From a virus: DNA of 29,203 nt. The position numbers and the translations under genes are program-made. Location: the IMG/VR virus record IMGVR_UViG_3300033144_001375, positions 1-29,203 of that record; one strand, given 5' to 3'. Numbering within the stretch: position 1 is the first letter of the stretch; every line of letters starts with the position of its first letter. The notes beneath the pieces were generated by a model. It worked only from the letters and a program-made list of their open reading frames with translations. It did no database searches and was not told where the DNA came from. Positions 11,057 to 29,203 of this stretch are shown one piece after another.

Positions 11057-14000
11057 ATGCCAGAAGTTAAAAATACATTTATCCAGTCCAAGATGAACAA
11101 GGACATGGATGGTAGAATATTACCCAATGGTCAATATAGGGATGGGCAAAATGTGCAAATCAGTAGATCAGAAGGAGATGATGTAGGAGCATTAGAAACG
11201 GTTTTAGGAAATGATTTTAAAACCAACTTTGGATTAGATGATGATAATTTAGTAGCTATTGGTAAATTAAGAGATGATACTGGGGATGCTATTTATTTAT
11301 TTTTAACTAATTATACAGATTGTTCATATGATCAATTAAGTAATCCAACTTATAAAGTAAGTGGAGTATCTTGCTATATAGTAAAATACGATTTAAGATC
11401 AAATCTAGGAACAATATTAGTAGAAGGAAATTTTTTAAATTTTTCTACTACTCATTTAATAACAGGAGTTAATTTACTAGAAGATTTATTATTTTGGACA
11501 GATAATAGAAACCAACCTAGAAAAATAAATATTACTTTAGCTACTCCAGGACACTACACAAATGAAGATCAAATCTCTGTTTCTAAGTACTACCCATATG
11601 AGGCTATATCTTTATTAAAAGAAAATACTCAAAGTATTTCTCCTGCTCTTCAACCGCCGTTTGAATCTACTATGTTAGATACCACTTCTGAGTATCTACC
11701 TATACATACAGCTGCTAAAATTTCTGAATTAAACGCTCCCAACGCTAACGATATTAAAGTTTTTGGATGTTACGATAATATAAAACCAAACACACCTGGT
11801 TTTATAGGTAATGATGGAAATTTAATGACTGGCGCTGCGGTAAACACTACTCCAGTCATTGTAGACAACGTACAAGTAGACTATGGAACAAGCACTACAG
11901 TTATAAGTATAGTTACTCCAGATAATCCTACGGCTGTTCCTAATGTAATATCTAATCTGGAAATAGGAGATATATTATATTTTCAATTTTTAAATCCTGA
12001 TTATCTACCAGCATGGCCTGGTGATCCTGATTATTTAAAAAATAGATTTGTAAGATTTAGTTATAGGTTTAAGTTTGAAGATAATGAATATTCTTTAGCG
12101 GCACCTTTTACTCAAATAGCTTTTGTACCTAGACAAGATGGATATTTTATTGGAGACAATGCAGTAACTAATGGTGTAAATGATAGAACTGGAGTTGCTA
12201 ATGATGTTGTGCCTGGCTTAGTAGGTCAAGAATCTGCTACGTTTGATACTACTGTAGTAGATTTTATGCAAAACAAGATTACAGATATTACTTTAAGATT
12301 ATTAGCGCCTACGCATAGAAATTTAGTTAATGCTACGCAATATTCAGGTTCAGCTAAACAACCTGATTATATGAATTGGAGTGAAGTAGAATCTAAATTA
12401 AAAATTAAAGAAATTGAAATACTTTATAAAGAAGCTGACTCTAATAAAATAACAGTGTTAGATACTTTAACTTTAAATGATTTTAGTTCTATTAATTCTA
12501 AAAATCTTTATTATAATTACCAAAGTAGAAAACCTTGGAAAACAGTTGTTCCTAATCAAACAACTTGGGTCAGTTCTCAAGTTCCTGTAAAAGCATTAGC
12601 TCAAGAAGTTTCTGGAAATAGAGTAATGTATGGAAATTTTATAGATAAACATTCTACTCCTTTAAATTTAAATTACACGTTGCAAATTGGAGATAAACCT
12701 GAAATTCCAGATGTAGATCCTGGTAATCCTCCTCCAAGCAACTTATTTAGTAGCGTAGCTAATGTAAGAAAAGAGTATCAAAACCACACTTTAAAGCAAA
12801 ATAGAACATATCAAGTAGGTGTGGTGCTTTCAGATAGATATGGAAGATCTTCCAATGTAATATTATCTTCGGTTCAAGTAGATAATCAAGATCCTGAAGC
12901 AAAAGGATCTACAATATTCCACACTTATAAAAATCCTGAAGATCAAATTATTCAAGATAAGTATTCAGTTCGTTACGTAGCGCTGCAAGATCCTACTACA
13001 TGGCCTGGTGATATGCTTAATATAACTTTTGAAAATGCTATTCCTCAAGCTAAAAACAATACAGGATATCCAGGTGTTTATTCTAAAGATGACGGATCAA
13101 TAGATTCGGTTATTATACAAATTACTAACCCAACTCCTCCTTTTAACCCGGCTTTAGCTGGGTGTACTTTTACTGTAGATATAGCTAATAGTTCAGGAGG
13201 TACAGGTACAATAGGAATTGAAGTAGGTCCAGGTGGTGAAGCCATTTTTACAGGAGTTGGAGACCCGGGAAGTGGTTGGACTAATGGTGCTAACTTTACT
13301 GTAATTGGTTGGCCTGCTTTCTTCCCAGGATGTGCGCCTTCTCCCGTGCCTAGCATTCAAGGTATAGTACTTACACCTAAGGAAAATCCTTTAGGATGGT
13401 ATAGTTATAAAATCGTCGTAAAACAACAACAGCAAGAATATTATAATGTATATCTTCCAGGTTCTATGGCTGGTTATCCGTGTTTTCAAAATCCATCAAA
13501 TACTGCACCTTTTAATATATCTACATTAGTTAATGTTGATCCGGCTGAACCTTCTTCAGATTCAACATCGGTAGATCAAGAGTATGGAGCTATTCCTCAA
13601 ATGATTTATCCTACTGGTCAGTCAAAAAGTACATCGCATATTGTATTATTTAGTGATAATATAAATAAAGTTCCTAGAGATTTACAAGAATTAGGACCTT
13701 TACAAGATGAATTTAGAAGTGGAGAAGAAGTATTTATACGAGTAGAAAGTATACTTTTGGATGGTGGAGCTACTTTTGATGATACTTATTCAAGTAGACA
13801 ATATGAACCAAATGTTTTAGGAGATAAAGTAATTGCAATAGCTTCCATGGAAAAATTAGGATTAGGAGATTTAACTACTAGTCCAGCGTTTCCTATTATA
13901 CCTAATTTATTTTATAAAGGTGATACTAATCCTTTAATTGCTAGAATTGAAACAGAAAATATGTTTGGGATTCGTAAAGGAGATGGTGGTAATTTATGTG

Positions 14001-16618
14001 AAGCAGAATATTTTCGCCCTGCTGATGCACCTGCAGACAGCGAAGTTGTAAGAAATACTAGATATAGTTATGGACCCACTTTAGCGGTGTTAGAAACCAA
14101 ACCTGTAGAATCTTTATTAGACATATTTTGGGAAACAACTACTTCGGGTTTAATACAACAACTAAACTACGATATTGAAAATAGTGATAACACTATACCT
14201 TCTGGACTAACTCAAGTTGATATAACATGGAGTGAAGCAGATGATTATGGTGATGTTATTTCTAACGATTTTCAAGCTGCTGGGCCTACGGGAAATCCTT
14301 TAGGAGCAGGTGTTGAGGTAGAGTTGATAAATGTAGTAGATGGTAACGGAACTTCTTACTTTGGAGCTTTTGACTTAAATTCAGTAGGTGTAGGTGAATA
14401 TAATATTAGTATTGCTCCATGTAATACTGGCGGGTGTCCTGGATTTTTGTGCTGGGAAGATCCTGCTAAAAATATATTCTTTTTTACGTTTGCACTTACA
14501 GATCTAAGTACTGGACTTATTAGCAATGTTGAAGCGACAGGTTATGTATTTAACAGAGAACCTATTGATAGAGGGGCACTAGATGTAAATGGAGGTGCTT
14601 TAAGCACTAATCTAAAAAGTTGGTTAAAAGAAGTAAATTGTGATGGATCTAATAATTTAGGATATGATGACGGAGTTAATCCTATAAATAATCCAAGAGA
14701 TGCTGTGTTTACTACTTTAAGAGCTGAACAAGGTGGACAAAAATTTGGTTTAAGTAGTGTTATAAGAAGAACTTTTTCTTGGCCAGGAGAAAATTTAACT
14801 GATGAAAAAAGATTTTTAGATCAGTTTATAGTTAAAGAAAGTTTAATTCCTAACGCACCGTTGAATTTTGGAAAGATAAAACCTGATTCAAATAAATACG
14901 TATTTTGGGATAGACAGTTAGATCCTGGTTACCCACTGGGAGAAACTGAAGATACTTTAAAAGGTTGTGGTGGAGATGTAGAAGAAGCGTCTCCTAAAAA
15001 TAGATGTGGTGGTGCTAGTGGTTTTAGAAGTTTTGGGTATTTTGGATTAAGAAATTATTATGAAGGATATCCTCCATATAGTCCAACTGCTAACAAACCT
15101 GACGGTTGGCCTAGTGATCAAACAGCTTTGTTTGATTTAAGTTCTACACCTTCTGACGCTGATAATTTCCTACTATGTGGTGATGGTAGAAATAAACAAA
15201 CTGTACAATTACAATATCTATATGATGTTGACCAATGGGAAGATACTCAATCTGCTAACTTTCCTGATGCAGCTCCTCCTTATAATAGTATACCTTACCC
15301 TAATATACACGATGGAGTTAAAGTTTCCGCACCTTTATACATGGGTAAAGATGAAGGACCTAACGCTGATAATGTTAAAATACATCCTAGTTGTGGATTA
15401 ACTAAATTTAATTCTGCATATGATTGGGATGGAGAATTTAGAGTAGCTAATGGAGCTTGGGGAAGTGATCAACCAACTGAAACATTCCCAATTGGCGGAA
15501 ACACAGCGGGTACATTTGGAGAAATAGAATGGTCTATACCAAGAATGTATCAAGTAAGTATGATGATTCCTTTTGGAGAAGAACAAGAAGATTTAATAGG
15601 TGATTTTAATGTTTTAGGAGATATTTTTACTCCTACTGGAAGATTTCCTAACGTTGACGAACCTACTGAAGTTGGCACTATGGGTAACTATGGTTGTGGT
15701 GGATTAAGTGGTAATAATCCTGACTGTTATATGGATTATCAACCAGCAGGAGAAGTTGTTTTTGGTTTATATCAAACATTTAAAGGAACTCCTCCAGCAA
15801 CAGGTAAAAATTCTATTTTAAATTATATACCGAGCGGTCCTATATATTGGGAAAATAAATCTAGTCAATTAAATGATTCACCAGCTATTGGTGGAGAGAG
15901 TATAGTAGGGCTCAAGTATAATCAGAGAAATGGAATAGTAGATCCACTAGAAATATTTCCTTATCATTATTGGCCAGATTTAAATAAATTATTAACTCAG
16001 TCAACAAAACAACAAATTGTTGATTTTAGAGGTAATCCTTTAGATCCTGCTAATACACCAGCTTTTATGAAATTGCAAAATGGCGCCAACACTTTTTATC
16101 AATGGAATAGTGAGCATGCTACATGGAAGTATGAAAGATATCCAGGGTATGATCAAACTTCTCCAGTAACTCCGGAAAACCCTTCAGAGAATAAAAACTT
16201 TGGAGAAGGTCATTGGGAAATTAATGAAGATAAAGCTATTGGACCAGCTGAAGAAAAAAATATTTTAAATTATTTATTTTATTTAGGTGGAATTGATCCA
16301 ACAACAAAACTAGGTAACATAAACAATTTACAAAGGTTCTTTATGAATCCTATAGCTAATACAGGTCAAGGATATAATCAAGTAGCTAAAGCTTTTTTAA
16401 GTGCTGGATTTGTACAAGATCCTAATAACTTTCCTCAACAACCTTGGAGTGGTCCTCATGAATACGGAAATGGTATGCCTGGTGGAAGATATATTGTAGT
16501 AGTAAGAGCAACGGATAAAAATGGAGCAGCAGACGGCATGTATTATGAATTTGAAGTACCAGTTTATTTACCATGGTGGTCCACTAGAACTAATTGCCCT
16601 TTGCTATCTAACTTATAA
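11057..16618 (+). CDS. Very large tail hub/nozzle-like structural protein
   Basis: This is 1853 aa with no membrane segment. The first 250 residues (NKDMDGRILPNGQYRDGQNVQIS, EGDDVGALETVLGN, LEDLLFWTDNRNQPRKINI) resemble the beginning of tail nozzle/stabilisation proteins of the T7 gp12 / P22 gp10 type, which are beta-propellers at the tail tip. Later segments also seen in Bacteroidota phages, from memory, are NRTYQVGVVLSDRYGRSSNVILSS (about 585), GWYSYKIVVKQQQQEYYNVYLPG (about 780) and NINKVPRDLQELGP (about 870). Residues about 700-757 hold an insertion ending GSGWTNGANFTV, like a small Gly-rich beta repeat used in phage fibre proteins. The C-terminal 500 residues are rich in Gly, Pro, Asn and aromatics and contain several Cys. 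It is much longer than T7 gp12 or P22 gp10 (roughly 800 and 470 aa). It probably forms the tail hub with the 648-aa protein. Confidence 0.7.
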   Translation: MPEVKNTFIQSKMNKDMDGRILPNGQYRDGQNVQISRSEGDDVGALETVLGNDFKTNFGLDDDNLVAIGKLRDDTGDAIYLFLTNYTDCSYDQLSNPTYKVSGVSCYIVKYDLRSNLGTILVEGNFLNFSTTHLITGVNLLEDLLFWTDNRNQPRKINITLATPGHYTNEDQISVSKYYPYEAISLLKENTQSISPALQPPFESTMLDTTSEYLPIHTAAKISELNAPNANDIKVFGCYDNIKPNTPGFIGNDGNLMTGAAVNTTPVIVDNVQVDYGTSTTVISIVTPDNPTAVPNVISNLEIGDILYFQFLNPDYLPAWPGDPDYLKNRFVRFSYRFKFEDNEYSLAAPFTQIAFVPRQDGYFIGDNAVTNGVNDRTGVANDVVPGLVGQESATFDTTVVDFMQNKITDITLRLLAPTHRNLVNATQYSGSAKQPDYMNWSEVESKLKIKEIEILYKEADSNKITVLDTLTLNDFSSINSKNLYYNYQSRKPWKTVVPNQTTWVSSQVPVKALAQEVSGNRVMYGNFIDKHSTPLNLNYTLQIGDKPEIPDVDPGNPPPSNLFSSVANVRKEYQNHTLKQNRTYQVGVVLSDRYGRSSNVILSSVQVDNQDPEAKGSTIFHTYKNPEDQIIQDKYSVRYVALQDPTTWPGDMLNITFENAIPQAKNNTGYPGVYSKDDGSIDSVIIQITNPTPPFNPALAGCTFTVDIANSSGGTGTIGIEVGPGGEAIFTGVGDPGSGWTNGANFTVIGWPAFFPGCAPSPVPSIQGIVLTPKENPLGWYSYKIVVKQQQQEYYNVYLPGSMAGYPCFQNPSNTAPFNISTLVNVDPAEPSSDSTSVDQEYGAIPQMIYPTGQSKSTSHIVLFSDNINKVPRDLQELGPLQDEFRSGEEVFIRVESILLDGGATFDDTYSSRQYEPNVLGDKVIAIASMEKLGLGDLTTSPAFPIIPNLFYKGDTNPLIARIETENMFGIRKGDGGNLCEAEYFRPADAPADSEVVRNTRYSYGPTLAVLETKPVESLLDIFWETTTSGLIQQLNYDIENSDNTIPSGLTQVDITWSEADDYGDVISNDFQAAGPTGNPLGAGVEVELINVVDGNGTSYFGAFDLNSVGVGEYNISIAPCNTGGCPGFLCWEDPAKNIFFFTFALTDLSTGLISNVEATGYVFNREPIDRGALDVNGGALSTNLKSWLKEVNCDGSNNLGYDDGVNPINNPRDAVFTTLRAEQGGQKFGLSSVIRRTFSWPGENLTDEKRFLDQFIVKESLIPNAPLNFGKIKPDSNKYVFWDRQLDPGYPLGETEDTLKGCGGDVEEASPKNRCGGASGFRSFGYFGLRNYYEGYPPYSPTANKPDGWPSDQTALFDLSSTPSDADNFLLCGDGRNKQTVQLQYLYDVDQWEDTQSANFPDAAPPYNSIPYPNIHDGVKVSAPLYMGKDEGPNADNVKIHPSCGLTKFNSAYDWDGEFRVANGAWGSDQPTETFPIGGNTAGTFGEIEWSIPRMYQVSMMIPFGEEQEDLIGDFNVLGDIFTPTGRFPNVDEPTEVGTMGNYGCGGLSGNNPDCYMDYQPAGEVVFGLYQTFKGTPPATGKNSILNYIPSGPIYWENKSSQLNDSPAIGGESIVGLKYNQRNGIVDPLEIFPYHYWPDLNKLLTQSTKQQIVDFRGNPLDPANTPAFMKLQNGANTFYQWNSEHATWKYERYPGYDQTSPVTPENPSENKNFGEGHWEINEDKAIGPAEEKNILNYLFYLGGIDPTTKLGNINNLQRFFMNPIANTGQGYNQVAKAFLSAGFVQDPNNFPQQPWSGPHEYGNGMPGGRYIVVVRATDKNGAADGMYYEFEVPVYLPWWSTRTNCPLLSNL

Positions 16619-16637
16619 GGTAATTAATTAAAAAATA

Positions 16638-16649
16638 AAGTGATTATAA
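16638..16649 (+). repeat. Intergenic 12-mer, copy 2 of 2
   Basis: This is the same AAGTGATTATAA as at 8860-8871. Here it ends 3 bases before the ATG of the 648-aa gene, so as a promoter it would leave no leader; it might instead be part of the initiation region or a processing signal. Confidence 0.35.
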
Positions 16650-16652
16650 ATT

Positions 16653-18599
16653 ATGGCTTATCAGATACCTATAAAATATTTTAACTCTTTTTGGCTAAAG
16701 AAGGTTGTTGGAGATACTAGCGAAAATCCTAGAAACGAAATAGAAAGTGCTGGAGGAACATGGGATTATGAATCTACAGTTACAACAAGTGTATTAACTG
16801 GTGGAGGAAGAGGCAAAGATACACAACCCTTACCTTATATTTTACCTACGTGGCCTGGTATTCCTTGGGGTAAATATTTATCTAAACCAAATTTAGAAGA
16901 TCCTACTGTTACTAACGCATATCCTTGTTTTCCATGGGGTGGTAGAGACTGGGATATTTATAATGCTGGAGATGATTTGCCAGATTGTGGTGGTAGTTTA
17001 ATAAATTCTACACCTTCACTAGAAGAAGGTAGAGAAAGAAATTGGGCTATTGAAGAAGCAAGAATTAGAGGAGGTTATAATAATACTACTGTAGATTTTG
17101 GAGTTAAAGCTTATTTAGTAGAAGATGAAAATTTAGCTGAAAATAGATTTAACACTATAATCTATTCAGGCATATATAATTCTAGAACTGGTTTAAATGA
17201 AACAAATGTATTCAACAATGCTGATGGTTCAATAACAGTTTCTTTAGATCCAATAAATGGTAGTATACAAAAATTATATGCCTATGATACCAACCTAACA
17301 ATTTTTCAAGAAAATAAAATTAGTAGAGCTTTAATAGATAAAGATGCTATTTATTCTGCTGAAGGTGCTGGCACAGCTGTGTCCTCTACCGAGTTAGTCA
17401 TTGGTCAAGTAACACCTTATAAAGGTGAATATGGTATTAGTAAAAATCCAGAATCATGGGCACAATTTGGATTTAGACAGTATTTATCTGATAAATATAG
17501 AAGTGCTATATTAAGATTATCAATGGATGGAATAACTGAAATATCTAATTATGGTATGACAGATTATTTTAGAGACGAACTTGCTTTAATAAATGACAAC
17601 CCTATTGTAACAACAAGCACCTATTCTTATTTTGATGAAGGATTAGATCCATCTATTTTTATTGGTTTTATATATGTAGACGACATAGATTGTGATTGCT
17701 CAAACAATATTCCAATAGGATCTTTAATACAAATTAATGATAAAACAATTCCTGGTTTATTTGTAACTTCAGTATCATCCACTAGTATAAATGGAAGATG
17801 TTTTATAACTACTTCTATTCCTTGGAGCCCGTCTCAATTTGGATTAGCTGTATGGCCTGAAAGTGTTAATTTTGTGTTTACTAATAAAGATGTAGTTCAG
17901 GGAGCTTTTGATACTCATAATAAAAACTATGTAGTATCTTTACAAAACTATGAAGGCTCTACAAACGCTTGTACACCAGAATTTAATTATAACACAGTAA
18001 GTTTTGATGAAGCGATTAATGGTTGGGTAAGTTTCTTTTCTTACAAACCCGCTGTCATGGAAAGTTTAAAAAACGACTTTTTCAGTGTAGATGGACACAA
18101 TGTTTACAGGCATTATGATGGTCCTAAATTTGGTAATTTTTACGGTGTTCAATATACTTCTTCCATTGAATTTATTTTTAATCCTAATCCTTCTATTAGT
18201 AAAAACTTTCAAACAGTTTCTTATGAAGGAACTAATGGATGGAGAGTAGATCATTTTGTATCAGATGCCACAGAACAAATGTTTAATGTATTTAGTGGAA
18301 CTTATAATGCAGCAACCGATGTTACAAACCCTGTGTTCAGTTTAGAAGAAGGTTTGTATACTAATCCTAATACTCAAATGCCAGAGTATTCAGGTTTTTA
18401 TTTAAAAGAAAATAAATACTGTGCAAATCTAATAAATAATAGTGTACCATTTGAAGGAGAAGTAGTATTTGGTTCTTCTATGAGTGGTATAAAAGGATTT
18501 TTTGCTACAGTTCAATTTTCTACTGATAATCAAACTGATGTTGGTGGAATGAAAGAACTTTATGCAGTATCAAGTAAATGGGTGGTATCATCACAATAA
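16653..18599 (+). CDS. Tail stabilisation / muzzle-like structural protein
   Basis: This 648-aa protein has a pattern I associate with tail-end proteins of crAss-like and related Bacteroidota podoviruses. An N-terminal Gly/Pro/Trp-rich part (WPGIPWGKYLSKPN) is followed by RIRGGYNNTTVDFGVKAYLV, then NRFNTIIYSGIYNSRTGLNETNVF, YAYDTNLTIFQENKISRALIDKDAIYSAEG, and GISKNPESWAQFGFRQYLSDKYRSAILRLSMDGITEISNYGM. These read as successive beta-propeller blades like those of P22 gp10-type proteins. It follows the 1853-aa gene after 34 bases, and both may contribute to one tail hub; in relatives parts of the two may be fused (inference). The gene stops one base before the GNAT start. The tail role is well supported by context; its precise position in the tail is not. 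Confidence 0.7.
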   Translation: MAYQIPIKYFNSFWLKKVVGDTSENPRNEIESAGGTWDYESTVTTSVLTGGGRGKDTQPLPYILPTWPGIPWGKYLSKPNLEDPTVTNAYPCFPWGGRDWDIYNAGDDLPDCGGSLINSTPSLEEGRERNWAIEEARIRGGYNNTTVDFGVKAYLVEDENLAENRFNTIIYSGIYNSRTGLNETNVFNNADGSITVSLDPINGSIQKLYAYDTNLTIFQENKISRALIDKDAIYSAEGAGTAVSSTELVIGQVTPYKGEYGISKNPESWAQFGFRQYLSDKYRSAILRLSMDGITEISNYGMTDYFRDELALINDNPIVTTSTYSYFDEGLDPSIFIGFIYVDDIDCDCSNNIPIGSLIQINDKTIPGLFVTSVSSTSINGRCFITTSIPWSPSQFGLAVWPESVNFVFTNKDVVQGAFDTHNKNYVVSLQNYEGSTNACTPEFNYNTVSFDEAINGWVSFFSYKPAVMESLKNDFFSVDGHNVYRHYDGPKFGNFYGVQYTSSIEFIFNPNPSISKNFQTVSYEGTNGWRVDHFVSDATEQMFNVFSGTYNAATDVTNPVFSLEEGLYTNPNTQMPEYSGFYLKENKYCANLINNSVPFEGEVVFGSSMSGIKGFFATVQFSTDNQTDVGGMKELYAVSSKWVVSSQ

Positions 18600-19749: not shown

Positions 19750-22593
19750 ATGGGTTATACATCAGAAAGAACAAATATAAATAAATCCTTAGAGAGTTTA
19801 AATCAAGAGACACAAAGACTTCAGAAACAAACTAACTATGAATTTGACAGACTAGACCAAAGAAGAAGGCAAAATCAAAGTGCCAACATGAATTGGTTAG
19901 CTCAAAATCAGCGTAAGCTAGATATGGGCATGCAGCAATATCAAGAGTTACAAGACTCTTATGAACCAGACACTGGCTATACTGAAAAAACTAAGGCCAT
20001 GATGAGCGGTATGAGAGATGAATATTATAATCTTTTACAAAATAAAGTACCTAAATTAGATGGTGAAGGTAATCCATTAAAAGATAAGCAAGGAAACGTT
20101 ATTTACGAAGAAAACATTAGAGCTGCTAACGAGCAAAGAGATAAATTAATGAAGGGTGTAAAAGAAACTTCTATGGCTCAAGGTAATTTTGCTGGTGTAC
20201 AGGGTAAGATGGATGCTGCTTTATCTATAAACAACGAAGCTCCCGGATCATTAGATCCTAGAACTAATGCTGATACTACTGCTTTATTTAAGCCAGGTGT
20301 CCAAAAAGTTCCAAGATGGGATTCTAAATCAGGAAAAGTTGTTTTTGATATACGTACACCAAAAATGGGTGAGGATGGAGAACCAGTGATAGAAAATGGT
20401 GAACCAGTGTATGAAGAAGAAGTTAGAACTATAAGCGCAGGAGAATTTAATAGAGATGTAGAGTCTGGAGCTATTGGTATATTAACATATGGAGACGGTG
20501 GAGAGGATAGAAATGCTTTACAAACTGAAGCTTTTGACCAGCATTACAAAGACAAGTTTAGTAAGTTTAAAGATATGACAGATTTAAATGATATTAATAC
20601 CTATAATGATTTTAGAGAAACTTTTGCAGGTTATGAAAAGCATTTAAGTCAAATGGACGTAAGTAAAATTCTAGATGATAATCAAGGCATGTCTAAGAAC
20701 TGGACAGATGTATTAAATAGAATAGCAAGAAATGCTAGCAGTGATTTTTATGGAGACAATGAAAATCCTTTTAGAACAATGTTAGAGGATTTTGGTTTAA
20801 AAGATGAAGATGGAGATGGAAAAATTAGTGGTGATGAATTAAATGCTATTGGTGGAGCTTGGAAACCAGGTAACACAGATCAACGTGCATTAGCAGAGAA
20901 GTTTTATAGAACATATGATCCAAGTAGTGGTATATTACCTACTTATCTAAACGACATGCTTAAAACATCTCAAACAATTGGTGCAGATCAATTAAGTCAA
21001 AAAGATAAAATAAAAAGAGATACAGAAGATAGACTTTCTGGAAAAGTTACTACTCCTACATCTAATAACGCTAATAAAAACAAAAATAAACCAAAGCCTG
21101 GTAGTAAAAATAATAAACAAAACCCTAAAGCAAAATTTCCTACTTATCAAATAGAAGATGAAAATGGAGAAAAAAGCGATTTTAATTTTGAAGAAGATTT
21201 AGTAACTGATGAGGGCACTTATAAGTTTTCACCTACAAGTACTCCATCTTTGATAGTAGTAGACGGACCTAATGGTAAAGAAGTTATAAATACATCAGGT
21301 ACAGCTTTAAGCGAAAATCAAAGAAAACTAATTGAAGACCAAGCTAAAAAACAAAACATTGAAATCAAAATTAATGAAAAAGATAGATTAGATGAGTTAA
21401 ATTCTAAAAAAAAAAGTGATAGTAAAGTAGATGATAAACAAGAAAAGCCTGTAGAAGATACAACTGTAGATGAATCAGTAAATGAAAATCAAGCAGATGA
21501 TACAGAAGCTCAAGCAGATGACGCTCAAGAAGAAGCACCTGAAGAAGCACCTGCAATTGAAGGTGATGAAACAAATGAGCAAGTAGAAGAAATAACTAAT
21601 GAGCAAGTAGAAAGCGACTCAAATATTGACAAAACTACAGGTTTTCTAAACAATAAAGGAGGAATAAAAAGTTTTACTCCAGAAAAAACTGTTGTATACG
21701 ATGATAGTAATTTAGAAGCTTTAAAAGGTTCACCTGAAGAAGTTCCTGCACTTAACTTTATGTTAGGTATAGAAAACACTGTTGGTTGTGTTGATGATAA
21801 TGGTAATCCTAAACCTTGTACCGGCTACGCTGAGGATAAAGATATGATAGCTGAAAATATTCAAAAGATAAACAATACTCATTTAGGAAAAGGAGAGTGG
21901 ACTGATCAGTATGGTAACAAAAAACTAGCTTTGAATAATAATAAGGTTTTTGGTGGACAATGGGATAGTTTACCTGAACAAGTTCAAACCTCGCTTTTAC
22001 AATATAACTTTAATAGTAGTTGGGATCCTAGAACTATAGTAATGCTAGCCAGCGGTACGATGGATAATACGGGTAGTAATAGATCTCTTAAAGGAGAAGA
22101 GTTAGATAAAAAGTGGAATGAAGTAAGAAATTCTATTAACTATACTGACCCAGCTGCAGATAATTATATGGATCCGATCGACATGGATTATCATATGGAT
22201 TATTTTTATGACAATACATTTGGAGATGAAGAAGATTATAAATATAAAGCTACTGGAATAGCAGAACCAACTGATGAGTCCTTAAAAGCTGATCATGATA
22301 AGTATTTAAAAGAAATAGGAGATGGAGATAAAGACGCTGGAATTGGAGTACTTACAGAATTAAATAGATTAATGGATATAAATTCCAATTTAAAAGTACT
22401 TGATGATGATCTAAATATAAATCCAAAATGGCAGGAGACTCACGATAATTATATGAAATACGCAAATGACCATAATATTAATCCACAAAATTTACGTATA
22501 TTACCAAAAAATGTTAAATCATATAGAGCACGAATGGATTTATTAAAGAGTAGATATAACGAATATTATGAAATTCCAGAATGGAGACAATAA
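19750..22593 (+). CDS. Large internal virion/ejection protein with EF-hand loop and possible lysozyme-like domain
   Basis: This is 947 aa. Residues 1-80 are a Gln/Arg-rich coiled coil. Residues 352-363 (DEDGDGKISGDE) are a textbook EF-hand calcium loop with Asp at positions 1, 3 and 5, Gly at 6, Ile at 8 and Glu at 12. Residues about 430-460 are Lys/Asn-rich and about 560-630 an acidic repeat linker. Residues about 668-790 may be a lysozyme-like fold: a Glu (E675) in MLGIENTVG, then a Gly-rich turn and PCTGYA, followed about 65 residues later by LPEQVQTSLLQYNFNSS, similar in pattern to the helix of phage muramidases. A capsid-packed ejection protein with cell-wall opening activity, functionally like T7 gp16, is plausible. 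The C-terminal 150 residues are acidic and helical. The gene starts 2 bases after the TAG of the previous one. Location is well supported; enzyme activity is speculative. Confidence 0.6.
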   Translation: MGYTSERTNINKSLESLNQETQRLQKQTNYEFDRLDQRRRQNQSANMNWLAQNQRKLDMGMQQYQELQDSYEPDTGYTEKTKAMMSGMRDEYYNLLQNKVPKLDGEGNPLKDKQGNVIYEENIRAANEQRDKLMKGVKETSMAQGNFAGVQGKMDAALSINNEAPGSLDPRTNADTTALFKPGVQKVPRWDSKSGKVVFDIRTPKMGEDGEPVIENGEPVYEEEVRTISAGEFNRDVESGAIGILTYGDGGEDRNALQTEAFDQHYKDKFSKFKDMTDLNDINTYNDFRETFAGYEKHLSQMDVSKILDDNQGMSKNWTDVLNRIARNASSDFYGDNENPFRTMLEDFGLKDEDGDGKISGDELNAIGGAWKPGNTDQRALAEKFYRTYDPSSGILPTYLNDMLKTSQTIGADQLSQKDKIKRDTEDRLSGKVTTPTSNNANKNKNKPKPGSKNNKQNPKAKFPTYQIEDENGEKSDFNFEEDLVTDEGTYKFSPTSTPSLIVVDGPNGKEVINTSGTALSENQRKLIEDQAKKQNIEIKINEKDRLDELNSKKKSDSKVDDKQEKPVEDTTVDESVNENQADDTEAQADDAQEEAPEEAPAIEGDETNEQVEEITNEQVESDSNIDKTTGFLNNKGGIKSFTPEKTVVYDDSNLEALKGSPEEVPALNFMLGIENTVGCVDDNGNPKPCTGYAEDKDMIAENIQKINNTHLGKGEWTDQYGNKKLALNNNKVFGGQWDSLPEQVQTSLLQYNFNSSWDPRTIVMLASGTMDNTGSNRSLKGEELDKKWNEVRNSINYTDPAADNYMDPIDMDYHMDYFYDNTFGDEEDYKYKATGIAEPTDESLKADHDKYLKEIGDGDKDAGIGVLTELNRLMDINSNLKVLDDDLNINPKWQETHDNYMKYANDHNINPQNLRILPKNVKSYRARMDLLKSRYNEYYEIPEWRQ

Positions 22594-22604
22594 AATAAAA
22601 TAGT

Positions 22605-25600
22605 ATGGACGAAAAATATTGGGAAAACTTATATAGTAATTTCAAAAACTTTGAATTGTCTCAGTTAGCTGGTGATGACTTAATGTCTTTAGAAGAGTTT
22701 AAAAATTATGTAAACGAAGATCCTTTATCTTTTTATCATAACCATGAAGAAGATATTCAAAACACACCAGGAATGGTAAAGGCTATTATGCCTTTATTAC
22801 AGCAAAGTAATAAACCTGGAGCACCAACTGGAAATGAGTACAGTTTAGATTTAACTGAAACATCTAGTGGACTTCCTTCTGAGGAAATTGATTTTACTTT
22901 AGAAGAAGATACAACTTATCCTGAGATAGTTCATAGAGATAGCGGAATTACATATAATGCTCCAGAAGAAGAAGAAGAAGAAGAAGAAGTGGAGGGAGTA
23001 ACAGGAGCAACTGGAATGGACTTTACTGGAATGGACTTTAGTTTAGCAGAACCTGAACCTACTGGTGTACAAGGTGTTACAGGATTTCAAGGTCCTACAG
23101 GAGCAGCTGGCGTAGAGGGAGCAACAGGAGCAACAGGAGCAACTAGTGTGGAAGGCTTTCAGGGACCAGCAGACTTGCCAATAATTGGTCTTAATGATTC
23201 TGAATTTGATGGTCCAGACATACTAGGTGGAGACATCAATTTCTATAATCAGGGTGGTTACAAGAATTTCTCGTATATAGGTGATCAATCTGGAAAATCA
23301 ATGTCTAAAGAAGAATGGGATTTTTATGATAGTGAAGAAAATTTAGTTAATGCTTTAAATAATGACGTAAGATTCAATATGAATTTTGAATTTGAAGAAG
23401 ATACAAATTTTGAAGATGTAATTCAGATATATGACAAAAGGAAAAAGAAGTATTATTATGTTCCTTTAAACACTTCATATAATAGAAAAGAGTATCCAAA
23501 TAAAGATTATTCTAAAGATTTTGAGTCTTTTCAAAAAATTACGCAACTTGGTATTGGTCCTGACGAAAATGTTGAGTATCAACCAGATTTATTAGGAACT
23601 TATCATGAGGAGGTATACAATGATGATGGAACTATTAATGTAGAAAAGAGTACAAGCCGAGACAGTTTTAAAAATTTTTATGGTGATAAACCCCTGGCAA
23701 AATCATCAGTATCAGTCATTGACGATGAAGGGAATATTAGAGAAGAAGAAGTATATGATTTTGAGTTAGGAAAAGGTGATAGACAAGCTTATAGAGATTA
23801 TTACGTTGAAATACCTGATTATAATAACTCTGATGATAATGCTACTATAAAGATCAAAGCTACAGATAATCATATTGCTAGAGCTATAACTTTAACAAGT
23901 AAAAATGGAGGTACTATTGAAGATAATCTTAAAACTATCATAGAACAAGATGAAATACTACAACAAAAATATAAATTCGACGCACAATTAATAGGTAAAC
24001 AAAACGCTGTTGACATTGACGTTGACAAGGTGTTAAATAATATATTAAAAACACAAGAAGGTAGAGATTTTGTTCTTGCAGGAGGAAAGGGGTATGATAT
24101 AAAGCTTCTTGCACCAACTAACTATATGTACAAATGGTCTGGAGCATCAGGGCTTGAGGGTAAAAAACAAATAGCACAAACTATCAATTCGTTTGCACCG
24201 TTATTAGATGAGCAATTTCCAAAAGAAGCAGAACTTTTAAAAGCTCAAGAATTATATTCAATGTTACCTGAGAATATACCTACCAATCCTGAAGATAGGT
24301 TACAATGGTTGAATGTTGATGGTAATTATTCTCTGTTACTTAAAGAAAAGTCTAAATGGTTATTGAATCAAATTCACAACAGTGACACTCCTGTAATAAA
24401 AAGGCTAAAACAAATAGCTACAGAATTAGAAAATACAGAGATTGTAAATGCTGAGGTTAAAGATATGGCAACTCGTTTAGAGAGGTTATATCCTGGTGCT
24501 ACTAGAGAAGAAATAAATGCTAAAGCTAATTTCGCTGTTAATACAGATTTAACTTTTGATCAAATAGATATATTCGCTTCTGATGGTTATGGTGTTTTTG
24601 GAGTTACTAAACCTACACAAGAGCTAGTAGATATAAGTACTAATTTTCATGAAAGAAAAATAAGGTTAGATGAAGCTAGAATGAATACTTATTGGGATGA
24701 GTTTAAGAAAAATGGAGGTAACCACGCTGCCGCTCAAGCTGTTGCTTTAGAAAAACATCCTGTAAGTACAGAAGATATTGTATCTCAAAACGAATTAGCA
24801 AGTGCTGCTCAAAACTTTTTAAACGACCCTAAAGTAAATATTTATGCAGATATTGAGGGTAATTATGGTAACACTATATATTCTAGGGGAGAGAGAAAAG
24901 GCGATGCTTATATTAAAGATAAAATTACTGAATATCAATATGCTAATGCTGATTGGTTGAACGGTAGAATAATGAAAAATAACGCTGAAATTATTCAACT
25001 CGCAACCCAATTAAGTCAACAAGGCATGGGCATTTATGAGGGTGAAAATGACATGAGCTTCATAAATAAATCTTATGAAGGATGGATGGCTGCTTTAGGA
25101 GATGATGATAGTGTTTTTAAGGATTTTGAAAAAATTTATGAAATAGCAAAGACAGGGGAACTACCAACAAAACTAACTACTATTCCTAATAGTGACCACC
25201 CATTAGTTAAAGCTTGGAATGATGCAGTAGAAGATAGAGCTGTTTTAGGTATATCTAAAGTTTTAAACGTAGATTGGACTACTTCTATGAGAGATGGTTT
25301 TTGGGGTAATGCCGGAAACTGGGGATCTGCACTGAATTTTGAAGAATTAACATATACCGAAAACAAACATAGATTATTTAAAGAAATTGAAGCAAGTGGT
25401 ATAGAGTTAACAGATCAGGATAAGTACGACATGCAACTTTTAATTGGTAATTCAGAAAAAATTGGAGCTGCTGTACCTGAGTATACTAAAATGGGAGTTG
25501 AAATGGGAGCTACATTTTTACTTACTGGTGGATCAGGTAATGTTGCGAATGTTATGAGATGGGGTGCTACAAATCTTTTTAGAGGAATGGGAACTGCTGG

Positions 25601-28600
25601 TATTAAAATGGCTCCAAAAACAGCTGCAGCTCTTACTAAGTTCACTACTGGAGTTGGAGTTGAGTTTGTAGGATTACAAGGAGCTAGTGTTATAGAACAG
25701 CAAGTTTTTAACAATGAAGGAATGTCTGCTGGACATAACTTTAGAATGGCTCTAACAATGGGAGCTGGTAGACTTGGTGTGGCAAAAATAGGAGATAAAA
25801 TAACTAATTCGCTTTATAAAACAGCGACAAATCAAGCTAATAAAGGAAATTACTCTTTAAGTAATGTTTTAAAATGGAGTGAAACAACACCAGGTTTAGA
25901 AACTATAAACAAAGCTATTAATTTTTCAGTTAAACAACCTGGAGCTGCTGCGATTATGATGCAAGGTGAAAACGCTATAGAAGGTTTAATAAGTGGTCAA
26001 AGCATGGATGAGATATTTCATAACATGACAGATGGTGATCAGCTTTTTGAAACGTATGCTTCTTTTGCTTTAATGCAAATTATGCATCCTATGAAATCTT
26101 TTAAAGAAGCTAGAGAAACTTATAAAAGAGAAGTAGATAGGATAGCAGGTGATATTCCTATGTGGAATTCTGGATACCGTCAATTAGGTTTAAAAGAAGT
26201 AAGAGGAACTGAAGTACATTCTGATGCAGACGTAGATGTAGCTGTAAACAAAAAGATTAAAGAAATAAAAAAACAAGGCGGACAAAATGTAGCTGAACAA
26301 ATTGCATACATAAAGAGTGTAGGAAATAAATTAAAACAAAAAGGATCTTACCATGAGTTTGTAGAAGAGATGGCTAAAGAAGAACTTGCTCAAAAAGAAA
26401 CTGCTAGTCAAGAAGAATATGGTAAAAAATATGAAGATTTAACAGCTTCTGAAAAAAATATAATAGATAATAATTATGCTGAGTTAGCTGTTTTTCACAA
26501 TACCGCTAGATTAAATGCTACTGTAATGGCTATAAACAAAGGAGTTCAAATAGGTCCTGAGGATATTTTAAATATTACTGAAGCTGGATATTTAAATGAT
26601 GGTAAAGCCGTTATATATGAACTAATGGTTAATGGCGGTATGTCTGAGTTAGCCGCTACTCAAATGTACGCTCAATCTAGATTAATAGGAGATTATGCTA
26701 AGTCTGAATTTAGTATGGATCCCAAAGCTTTAAGAAGTGAGAATGGAAAGGCTTTTATATCAAATTCCATGGAAATAGTTAATTTAAGTTCGGAGGTTAA
26801 TAGATTAAAAGAAGTTTTAAAAACTTATAAAGCTGAAGGAAAAGAATCATCTGAAGAAATTAAAATAGGTAATGAGATAAAAATGTATGAAGATCTCATT
26901 GTTACAATGGAAAATGCTAATACTACTTTAGTAAATTCTCAAAGATTAATGGAGATGGCAGAAATATATCAACCTACAGTTGATTTAGCTAAAAAAGCTG
27001 GTCATCAAGTATTTGAAGGTAACACTGCTGAAGTTAATAAATTAAAAGAAGAATTTGTTGGTGTAGAGTTTAGTGAGATTGAAAGTGGTTTAATGGGAAT
27101 AGACACTCGTAAAAAAGTTATAAATCCAGATACAGGTAGAGTTATTAACAACCCTAATTACAACAAGCCTATACAAATATTCAATACAGACTTTGTTAAA
27201 CCTGGTACAGCTGCTCATGAAGTGTTAGGACATGCGTCTCAAGAATTGCTAGTTGGTGATGCTGCTATTAGTAAGCGTAAAGCGGATATCATGAAGAAAA
27301 ATCCGGAAATGAGTGAAGAAGTAGCTGGACAACAAGCTTTAGAACAAACATTTGATTATATAGATAAGGTAAAAGCTAGGATTAAAAGCAAACGTGGTGG
27401 AGAGTTTGAAAAGATAGAAGCTGAAATGGAAAAGCGTCCAGGTTATATAGAATATAAAGAGTCAGTAGAAGCGGGAGGACCTAGAGACATTGCTATGGAA
27501 AAAGAATTTTTAGCAGAATTTGTAGAAATGGCAGAAGCTGGAGGTTTTGATACTGGTATTAAGACTAAACCTACTGCAAAAACAAAACCAAAATCTATAT
27601 CTCCGAGAGATATGAAACCCGCTGAGTATGCAGACTTTATTTTAGAAGGTGGAACAAGAGATAAGTCTATACTAGAAGATGCTGTAAAATCAGACCGAAA
27701 TAAACTAATTAGATTACAAAATAAGTATGGTGTAAAACCTACTGAAATGATGGCTTCGGATAAAGGTATTAGTGAAAACTCTAAAAAAATTGCTGAAGTA
27801 AATAAAAAAATCAATGATAGGCTTTTAGAAAACGAAGAGTATAAGCGAAGCGTAGAAGAAGGAAAAGAAGAAGTTCCTCAAGAATTTAAAGACGAGTTCA
27901 TAACCAATAACATGGGGAGAGCTATGGATTTAGCTAATAAAGCTAAAAATAATCCAAACTTTTTTGGTGAAGGACAATCATATGAAAGTTGGGTGAGCGG
28001 ATATTATGAAGAATTAGTAAAAATTGCTAACACTTATAAACCATCTAGTGCTAAAGTAGTAAAAGACAAAAATGGTAAAGTAATAGGTAGACAAGATTTT
28101 GGTGCTTATATGAATGGTATAATCGCTAAAAGATATGGGGATGTATTAAACAAAGTTACAGCCGGAGAAACAAAAGCTCCTACAGTAAAACTTGATAAAG
28201 AAGTAAAAGAAGGTGAACGTAAAGTAGATGTAGTAGATGAAGCGTTAGATCCACAAGCAGCGTTAGAAGCAAAAGAATCGTCTACTAAAGAAAAACCTAC
28301 CACGTCAGGTGTTGATGCTACTAGAGTAATAAAAGATCCAGCTAAATTAAAAGAGTATGAGAAAAAAGTAGAAGATGAATTTATGAAACAGATTACCGAT
28401 AAAGATGGTAATATCATAAAAGAAAAACTGGAAGATTTAGATTATTCTACTAACGAAGATTTAGCTAAAGAAAACACAGCTGATCTATTCGGTATTGATG
28501 TTAAAACTTTAGAAGGTAAAAATCCTAGATATAGTAGAACCGATAAGAAAGGTAAAGTAAAAGTTGAAGATGGTAAAGTTAAACAATCAGAAAATTACAA

Positions 28601-29203
28601 CTTAAATAAAAAGTTATATGAAATATCTGATACATACGTTAAACTTTTAAATGAAACTAATTTATTTCCTAAAGATATTATAGAAGCTGACATTAAAAAA
28701 GCTCAAGAAAAATATAAAAATAATCCTACAGAAGCTAATAAAAAAGCCTTACAAAAGTTAAAAGACATAAAAAGACTTCAAAAAGGACAAGTCACAGGTG
28801 ACCAAGCTAAACAAGGTACATCGTTAAAAATAGATCCGTCAATACTTAAAGCTTTATATAAGAGCTCTGGAGTGAGATCTATGGGTAAGAAAAGCCAAGG
28901 AGATATAAAGTCTACTAGGATTGATGTAAAAGAGTTTAGAGAGCGTGCTGGTATACAATCGCCTGGTGCTTTTGAATCTAGAAGCTTAGATAAATTAACA
29001 GCAGCTGAAAAGTTAAAGTTAAGAAATCAAGATACATTAAAAGCGGCGTTAGCTAGAAACTATGGTAAACTTCTCAACAATAAAATTAAGCGTAATATAT
29101 TAGAAGATTTAGGTAAGAAGCAAGAAGTAGAACTAGCAAAGCAGCTTGAGAATACAATAAAAGAACTTAAAGCTGGTTCCAGTGAGTTTTCTGCTTCTCC
29201 TGT
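22605..29203 (+). CDS. Giant multidomain virion protein with collagen-like tract and HEXXGH zincin-like site (3' end outside window)
   Basis: The frame from ATG 22605 stays open for 2199 codons to the window end; I read it through without a stop. In order it has: an acidic N-terminus; eight Glu (121-128); a Gly-x-Thr/Ala collagen-like tract (about 131-189); a mixed soluble region (200-950) with EF/IPR-like helices; a Gly/Ala-rich hydrophobic segment (about 962-1065, MGVEMGATFLLTGGSGNV onward) that could contact membrane; a helical region; HEVLGHASQE at 1538-1547, a HEXXGH site; and EKEFLAEF at 1632-1639, a candidate third zinc ligand (ExxAE). The rest is Lys/Glu-rich helix, ending GSSEFSASP. 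It follows the internal protein genes by 11 bases, so it is likely packed in the head and ejected. Polyvalent phage proteins often join such domains, and a virion RNA polymerase further on is possible but not visible. Confidence 0.8.
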   Translation, partial: MDEKYWENLYSNFKNFELSQLAGDDLMSLEEFKNYVNEDPLSFYHNHEEDIQNTPGMVKAIMPLLQQSNKPGAPTGNEYSLDLTETSSGLPSEEIDFTLEEDTTYPEIVHRDSGITYNAPEEEEEEEEVEGVTGATGMDFTGMDFSLAEPEPTGVQGVTGFQGPTGAAGVEGATGATGATSVEGFQGPADLPIIGLNDSEFDGPDILGGDINFYNQGGYKNFSYIGDQSGKSMSKEEWDFYDSEENLVNALNNDVRFNMNFEFEEDTNFEDVIQIYDKRKKKYYYVPLNTSYNRKEYPNKDYSKDFESFQKITQLGIGPDENVEYQPDLLGTYHEEVYNDDGTINVEKSTSRDSFKNFYGDKPLAKSSVSVIDDEGNIREEEVYDFELGKGDRQAYRDYYVEIPDYNNSDDNATIKIKATDNHIARAITLTSKNGGTIEDNLKTIIEQDEILQQKYKFDAQLIGKQNAVDIDVDKVLNNILKTQEGRDFVLAGGKGYDIKLLAPTNYMYKWSGASGLEGKKQIAQTINSFAPLLDEQFPKEAELLKAQELYSMLPENIPTNPEDRLQWLNVDGNYSLLLKEKSKWLLNQIHNSDTPVIKRLKQIATELENTEIVNAEVKDMATRLERLYPGATREEINAKANFAVNTDLTFDQIDIFASDGYGVFGVTKPTQELVDISTNFHERKIRLDEARMNTYWDEFKKNGGNHAAAQAVALEKHPVSTEDIVSQNELASAAQNFLNDPKVNIYADIEGNYGNTIYSRGERKGDAYIKDKITEYQYANADWLNGRIMKNNAEIIQLATQLSQQGMGIYEGENDMSFINKSYEGWMAALGDDDSVFKDFEKIYEIAKTGELPTKLTTIPNSDHPLVKAWNDAVEDRAVLGISKVLNVDWTTSMRDGFWGNAGNWGSALNFEELTYTENKHRLFKEIEASGIELTDQDKYDMQLLIGNSEKIGAAVPEYTKMGVEMGATFLLTGGSGNVANVMRWGATNLFRGMGTAGIKMAPKTAAALTKFTTGVGVEFVGLQGASVIEQQVFNNEGMSAGHNFRMALTMGAGRLGVAKIGDKITNSLYKTATNQANKGNYSLSNVLKWSETTPGLETINKAINFSVKQPGAAAIMMQGENAIEGLISGQSMDEIFHNMTDGDQLFETYASFALMQIMHPMKSFKEARETYKREVDRIAGDIPMWNSGYRQLGLKEVRGTEVHSDADVDVAVNKKIKEIKKQGGQNVAEQIAYIKSVGNKLKQKGSYHEFVEEMAKEELAQKETASQEEYGKKYEDLTASEKNIIDNNYAELAVFHNTARLNATVMAINKGVQIGPEDILNITEAGYLNDGKAVIYELMVNGGMSELAATQMYAQSRLIGDYAKSEFSMDPKALRSENGKAFISNSMEIVNLSSEVNRLKEVLKTYKAEGKESSEEIKIGNEIKMYEDLIVTMENANTTLVNSQRLMEMAEIYQPTVDLAKKAGHQVFEGNTAEVNKLKEEFVGVEFSEIESGLMGIDTRKKVINPDTGRVINNPNYNKPIQIFNTDFVKPGTAAHEVLGHASQELLVGDAAISKRKADIMKKNPEMSEEVAGQQALEQTFDYIDKVKARIKSKRGGEFEKIEAEMEKRPGYIEYKESVEAGGPRDIAMEKEFLAEFVEMAEAGGFDTGIKTKPTAKTKPKSISPRDMKPAEYADFILEGGTRDKSILEDAVKSDRNKLIRLQNKYGVKPTEMMASDKGISENSKKIAEVNKKINDRLLENEEYKRSVEEGKEEVPQEFKDEFITNNMGRAMDLANKAKNNPNFFGEGQSYESWVSGYYEELVKIANTYKPSSAKVVKDKNGKVIGRQDFGAYMNGIIAKRYGDVLNKVTAGETKAPTVKLDKEVKEGERKVDVVDEALDPQAALEAKESSTKEKPTTSGVDATRVIKDPAKLKEYEKKVEDEFMKQITDKDGNIIKEKLEDLDYSTNEDLAKENTADLFGIDVKTLEGKNPRYSRTDKKGKVKVEDGKVKQSENYNLNKKLYEISDTYVKLLNETNLFPKDIIEADIKKAQEKYKNNPTEANKKALQKLKDIKRLQKGQVTGDQAKQGTSLKIDPSILKALYKSSGVRSMGKKSQGDIKSTRIDVKEFRERAGIQSPGAFESRSLDKLTAAEKLKLRNQDTLKAALARNYGKLLNNKIKRNILEDLGKKQEVELAKQLENTIKELKAGSSEFSASP
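22965..22988 (+). repeat. (GAA)8 triplet tract encoding eight Glu
   Basis: Eight perfect GAA codons in a row inside the giant gene, just before the collagen-like tract. A perfect triplet run can change length by slippage without breaking the frame, so the acidic spacer length may vary between related phages. Confidence 0.9.
22995..23172 (+). repeat. Collagen-like Gly-x-y tract
   Basis: Residues 131-189 of the giant protein repeat Gly every third position for long runs: GVTGATG, TGVQGVTGFQGPTGAAG, VEGATGATGATS and EGFQGP. It is interrupted by two copies of TGMDF and an SLAEPEP stretch. The DNA shows short direct repeats of GGAGCAACA. Such tracts form trimeric stalks in phage fibres, but this one sits near the N-terminus of a putative internal protein. 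Confidence 0.8.

Follow-up and report, generated by a model that had tools for sequence, protein, structure and literature searches.

A giant, probable polyvalent ejection-type protein of a Bacteroidota podovirus with an apparently exchangeable N-terminal payload and a constant C-terminal part

The window analyzed here, namely the entire 29,203-base virus record IMGVR_UViG_3300033144_001375, ends in a giant open reading frame (22605–29201) that starts with an ATG and runs through 2,199 codons without a stop, remaining open at the contig end. It adjoins virion genes encoding the terminase, the portal, capsid-type structural proteins and a crAss-type muzzle protein (Table 1). An earlier note on this DNA had singled out a giant multidomain frame of at least 2199 residues, placed it as the last virion gene and listed a collagen-like tract, an acidic run, a hydrophobic Gly/Ala segment, a metallopeptidase-like site and long Lys/Glu helices within it. 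The frame and its setting are borne out, as is its terminal position in the virion module, but the contig holds only the N-terminal ~60% of the protein. The acidic run consists of eight consecutive glutamates (EEEEEEEE), and the collagen-like tract includes, at aa 154–180, nine consecutive in-phase GXY triplets, as against at most five in 2,000 shuffles; this tract is matched by PHROG tail-fibre and collagen models, with the Pfam Collagen match falling below the Pfam cut-off. Lys and Glu together account for 24–29% of aa 1601–2199. The middle segment is indeed rich in Gly and Ala (23–24% at about aa 900–1100), but no 19-residue window of the protein exceeds a mean Kyte–Doolittle value of 1.2, and it thus shows no clear transmembrane helix. 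The multidomain character extends to a zincin-like and a sigma-like fold within the window, with further domains in the relatives.

Table 1. Coordinates of the giant protein, its parts and two neighboring genes in the window
Feature	Position	Strand	Basis or remark
crAss-type muzzle protein (PF25729 C-terminal domain)	16653..18599	+	marker for finding relatives
947-aa gene directly upstream of the giant	19750..22593	+	syntenic with the virion proteins phi18:3 gp121 and phi38:1 gp100
Giant polyvalent ejection-type protein, N-terminal ~60%	22605..29203	+	2,199 aa without a stop codon
Acidic run (aa 121–128)	22965..22988	+	
Collagen-like GXY tract (aa 131–190)	22995..23174	+	lineage-specific, outside the part common to the closest relative
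Gly/Ala-rich middle domain (aa 724–1198)	24774..26198	+	within the window, the region of the giant with the widest distribution among relatives
Zincin-like metallopeptidase domain (aa 1440–1702)	26922..27710	+	AlphaFold2 model, weak zincin-fold match, family alignment
HEVLGH (HExxxH) predicted zinc site (aa 1538–1543)	27216..27233	+	
Sigma-70 domain-2-like module (aa 1721–1855)	27765..28169	+	profile and structure matches; reverse search negative

The contig covers part of the genome of a Bacteroidota podovirus with affinities to the Pachyviridae, the Pervagoviridae and Elemovirus. Matches to PHROG head families were obtained for the terminase, portal and structural proteins, and the portal is 42–50% identical to those of MW202828 and the Flavobacterium elemo phages, with further matches in Cellulophaga, Tenacibaculum and Maribacter phages that are partly classified in the Pachyviridae and Pervagoviridae. 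The giant is carried by phages of marine Bacteroidota. Two genes of the window appear divided. The terminase large subunit (1–1489) is spread over two overlapping frames, 1–531 and 359–1489, which match consecutive parts of one PHROG profile, with a frameshift around nt 520 that is either real or a sequencing error. Further, two adjacent genes at 11057–18599, coding for 1,853 and 648 aa, match different parts of phrog_14478, a structural profile of 1,474 positions; a gene that phi38:1 and other relatives have in one piece is apparently split in the window. The 947-aa gene directly upstream of the giant is also variable, being 60% identical to its counterpart in the related locus L005 over the first 416 aa only.

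Neither a direct scan of viral contigs with the window giant as the query nor a tblastn search of phage records with it recovered a relative; the family was reached via the muzzle gene, which led to 70 related loci. The closest relative (L005/L078) is 36–38% identical over about aa 230–2198 of the window giant, the first 228 aa finding no match in L005; identity to L005 is 70–91% for virion genes g8 to g14 of the window lineage, as against 36% for the giant. Since the giant of L005/L078 extends 1,508 residues past the window's end, the full window protein is predicted to be about 3,700 aa long. The complete relatives range from 2,112 to 3,697 aa, and one of 3,864 aa is open at its own contig end. 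A degenerate-pattern search returned no contig overlapping the window past 29203; hence, everything said here of that part is drawn from the relatives (L078 and others). In these, the early stop without further domains that would have told against a longer chain is absent, in keeping with the earlier note. Giants also end the virion module in the Flavobacterium phage elemoC (3,694 aa), MW202828 (3,859 aa), the Tenacibaculum phage Gundel_1 (2,482 aa) and the Cellulophaga phages phi18:3 (1,935 aa) and phi38:1 (1,691 aa). As for the middle domain, a 7-member alignment was too diverged for scanning, and a scan with a two-member alignment returned only an already known contig.

In about 110 relatives the domain order is the same: the variable N-terminal region contains a metallopeptidase and often a sigma-70 domain-2-like module, and a HAD phosphatase and a conserved C-terminal domain of ~660 aa follow. 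Among the 116 proteins longer than 2,000 aa, a set that includes the window's giant, profiles built on the relatives detect the C-terminal domain in 113 and the HAD region in 109; the zincin and sigma-like profiles score in 102 and 71, respectively, counts that are approximate since the inclusion threshold in profile iteration was permissive (E<0.01, small set). In Pfam, neither the zincin nor the C-terminal domain has a significant match, and none of the known large-polyvalent domains scored in the giants.

The metallopeptidase-like site of the earlier note recurs in most of the family. An HExxH or HExxxH motif occurs at the equivalent place of the alignment in 111 of the 116 long proteins, and 112 such sites were counted over 125 sequences where about one is expected. 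The two histidines and the glutamate are invariant in the family alignment, with a mean column identity around the site of 18%, and the third zinc ligand is probably provided by EKEFLAEF (aa 1632–1639). An AlphaFold2 model of aa 1440–1935 (mean pLDDT 73), which was compared with PDB chains, shows a beta sheet followed by the active-site helix in its zincin part; among the chains ranked by Foldseek, to which this comparison was confined, zincin-fold chains match the N-terminal part of the model weakly (VIA-align Z about 5). Both HEXXH and HEXXXH have been described for polyvalent peptidases (PMC5512222). In this family the longer spacing is seen in the window, L078, L128, L149, L163 and L186, and on the tree of the C-terminal domain it lies on separate branches, requiring five changes for the five tips present there. 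The 3,859-aa giant of MW202828 bears two HExxH sites, at residues 1615 and 2500.

The module that follows the zincin is more ambiguous. With the same model, Foldseek gave nothing at E<=0.001, with sigma factors recurring among the weak matches; the VIA-align rows covering model residues 282–416 are mostly sigma domain 2, the best reaching a Z of up to 7.3 with an rmsd of 3.2 over 90 residues, a value of the kind that, as the VIA-align warning has it, arises by chance for helical models. A 30-member profile of the region returned sigma factors as its first four PDB matches (E 0.0014, 0.011, 0.017 and 0.14) and as most of its 22 matches, and the best Pfam family among the profile members is Sigma70_r2 (0.0015). 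The sigma register is the same by sequence and by structure, and control regions elsewhere in the same proteins yielded no sigma matches. These points argue against a mere helical resemblance with no bearing on transcription, a reading that we nevertheless take to be only somewhat less likely than not: besides the chance range of the Z value, hhalign gives an E of 0.003 but a probability of 10% for the region, and in the reverse search a profile of true sigma factors found nothing in the giants above shuffled controls. Further, the seed region was initially delimited by eye, on account of its sigma-like look. On balance, we lean toward a real relationship with sigma domain 2, supported, not proven; a role in transcription we rate lower. 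In the open-access literature searched we found no report of a virion-delivered sigma-like module.

Past the window's end, the HAD part of the relatives matches the polynucleotide kinase profile phrog_415 (4e-7). Its alignment conserves the DFDDT, TAR and DD motifs, and HAD motifs I, II and IV are found together in 85 of 113 proteins. The best fold match of the L078 HAD part among the chains compared is the 3'-phosphatase of T4 Pnkp (Z 10.8, rmsd 2.4, 120 residues). By its motifs and modeled fold, this part is thus predicted to be a Pnkp-type 3'-phosphatase. In L067, a P-loop kinase (AAA_33, 4e-15) is nested in the HAD domain shortly after DFDDT; this insertion, of the AAA_33/zeta-toxin type, occupies residues 1636–1783 of the giant and yields a nested kinase-phosphatase. 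The ~660-aa domain that follows is encoded by at least 515 stretches in virus contigs, with no tblastn match in cultivated phage records, and in a fold search its model matched the C-terminal regions of many viral proteins that carry a polyvalent annotation (E about 1e-8 to 1e-5). When genomes were searched for it, only phage-looking contigs in MAGs were returned. Such contigs (L107–L115) sit in MAGs binned as bacteria or archaea, namely Flavobacteriaceae, Cryomorphaceae, Aliivibrio and Woesearchaeota; they are probably phage, some of them misbinned, and several hint at Flavobacteriia hosts.

This constant C-terminus also bears on the suggestion of the earlier note that a DFDGD-type RNA polymerase might lie beyond 29203. 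A crAss-type virion RNA polymerase protein with its catalytic part past the contig end would fit a phage that encodes a crAss-type muzzle, and giant cargo proteins related to RNA polymerase are known from the crAss001 virion (PMC10172136). However, where that part would be expected the relatives carry the DFDDT-type HAD phosphatase and the conserved, helical 660-aa domain instead, D-x-DGD pentapeptides occur in only three of 125 giants, isolated and in unrelated contexts, and the DFDGD motif is absent from the window. The relatives thus largely refute the polymerase reading, which we regard as extremely improbable.

A comparison of closely related contigs brings out how the two parts of the giant evolve. 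It covered 63 contig pairs with a C-terminal domain identity of at least 85% but short of 100%; contigs recur among the pairs, and these cannot be counted as separate events. In 19 of the 63, less than 10% of the intervening N-terminal DNA could be aligned. The breakpoints are clustered: upstream homology ends 2–240 nt past the start codon of the giant (16 measurable pairs), and downstream homology resumes 17–176 nt before the start of the HAD domain in 18 pairs and 41 nt after it in one. For example, L124 and L159 have flanks that are 78% and 90–97% identical, with almost no payload aligned by blastn. Their payloads retain distant protein similarity in parts (26–32%) and thus represent strongly diverged forms, not proteins without any relationship. 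The converse is seen in L143 and L159, where the payload is 93% identical in protein over 1,656 aa (91% in DNA) and the C-terminal parts are only 70–72% identical. Such near-identical N-termini on diverged C-termini, together with the converse pairs, lead us to view the giant, as far as sequence comparison goes, as a constant C-terminal carrier with exchangeable N-terminal cassettes that make up the first two thirds of the chain. An assembly artifact is an unlikely source of the N-terminal variation, given the open frames, the clustering of the breakpoints and the upstream homology that reaches up to the start of the giant. We did not find this carrier-and-cassette arrangement, or the sigma-like module, described in the papers searched.

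The link of the giant to the virion, raised in the earlier note, is upheld by homology. The syntenic gp123 of phi18:3, annotated from MS/MS proteomics, matches relatives of the window giant at E=6e-20, and this annotation suggests that the giant is packaged in the particle; it is probably also ejected into the cell. We consider it likely that the locus encodes, as the last gene of its virion module, a polyvalent ejection-type protein of ~3,700 residues whose payload is exchanged as a unit while its C-terminus stays, with packing, ejection and the individual activities being inferred. Briefly, we advance the following plausible course of action. The giant would be packed in the phage head, with the constant C-terminal part acting as a carrier that fits the virion and might heal nucleic-acid ends. 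The payload would then exit before the DNA or together with it, and the metallopeptidase in the payload could cut either the giant itself into working pieces or host proteins. The payload might be swapped because its targets differ from host to host; these may include the transcription machinery of the host.

Alternatively, the giant could be a purely structural ejection (pilot) protein like T7 gp16 or crAss001 gp45, i.e., a fast-diverging channel-former in which the zincin and sigma-like folds are decayed or serve maturation only, and the payload varies under loose structural constraint. Ejection proteins are indeed known for mosaic domains and for a variability that few other virion proteins reach (PMC8954989), the metallopeptidases of polyvalent proteins may be confined to processing steps that precede or take place in the head (PMC5512222), and, of what the window encodes, the Gly/Ala-rich middle is shared most widely. 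Nevertheless, the persistence of the zinc-site motif in 111 of the 116 proteins amid strongly diverged surroundings, the joint retention of the three HAD motifs and the kinase nested in the phosphatase of some members speak against the purely structural account, which we regard as rather unlikely. A more far-reaching version of the ejected-payload reading, which we hold to be unlikely and put forward only as speculation, is that of a polymorphic effector turned around: the C-terminal carrier, combining an end-healing phosphatase and a packaging domain, would be constant and bear exchangeable N-terminal cassettes of ~1,500–2,200 residues, which in many members might deliver into the cell a sigma-domain-2-like module that redirects or blocks the host RNA polymerase before phage gene expression.

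The way in which Bacteroidota podoviruses, including relatives of the abundant crAss-like phages, take over their hosts within minutes of infection is still mostly an open question. Should a virion-borne payload be exchanged like a cartridge, it would probably be the part that meets host-specific targets or defenses, and the breakpoints would show what to clone and test. If true, the delivery of a sigma-like module from the virion would be a new way of seizing transcription.

Against this backdrop, the giant can be set beside several known systems. Its predicted phosphatase is likened to T4 Pnkp by fold, and by the P-loop kinase that some relatives nest in it; however, T4 Pnkp is a free enzyme, whereas the HAD domain of the relatives, beyond the window end, is part of a virion-type protein of ~3,500 aa. 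Among the cultivated phages, phi18:3 gp123, phi38:1 gp101, Gundel_1 gp74 and elemoC gp20 occupy the same place in the virion module and have regions homologous to members of the giant family, but are too diverged for tblastn from the window; the phi18:3 and phi38:1 proteins are without the zincin motif (HExxH) and the conserved C-terminus, of which Gundel_1 keeps a part. The N4 virion RNA polymerase, to which a zincin domain is fused as well (PMC5512222, PMC10172136), and crAss001 gp45–gp50 are likewise giant cargo-type proteins encoded with virion genes, whereas the present family has no fitting RNA polymerase motif. A further parallel is offered by the polyvalent proteins of phages and conjugative elements (Iyer et al. 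2017, PMC5512222), giant multidomain chains encoded among virion genes that combine a zincin with unrelated enzymatic domains. The giant belongs to this known class as a variant of the polyvalent ejection proteins: it adjoins virion genes, its HEVLGH site is of the HEXXXH type, and it unites at least two unrelated activity domains, namely the zincin and sigma-like domains in the window, along with the HAD domain and some kinases in the relatives. Since zincin-bearing polyvalent proteins have already been described (PMC5512222), the "undescribed system" of the earlier note was too strong a term. A look through the text of PMC5512222 for sigma, phosphatase and polynucleotide kinase turned up none of these terms. 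The giant family, without a significant Pfam match to polyvalent domains, stands apart within the class in terms of: (i) a constant C-terminal unit of HAD and 660-aa domains; (ii) a wholesale exchange of N-terminal cassettes; (iii) the addition of a putative sigma-70 domain-2-like module.
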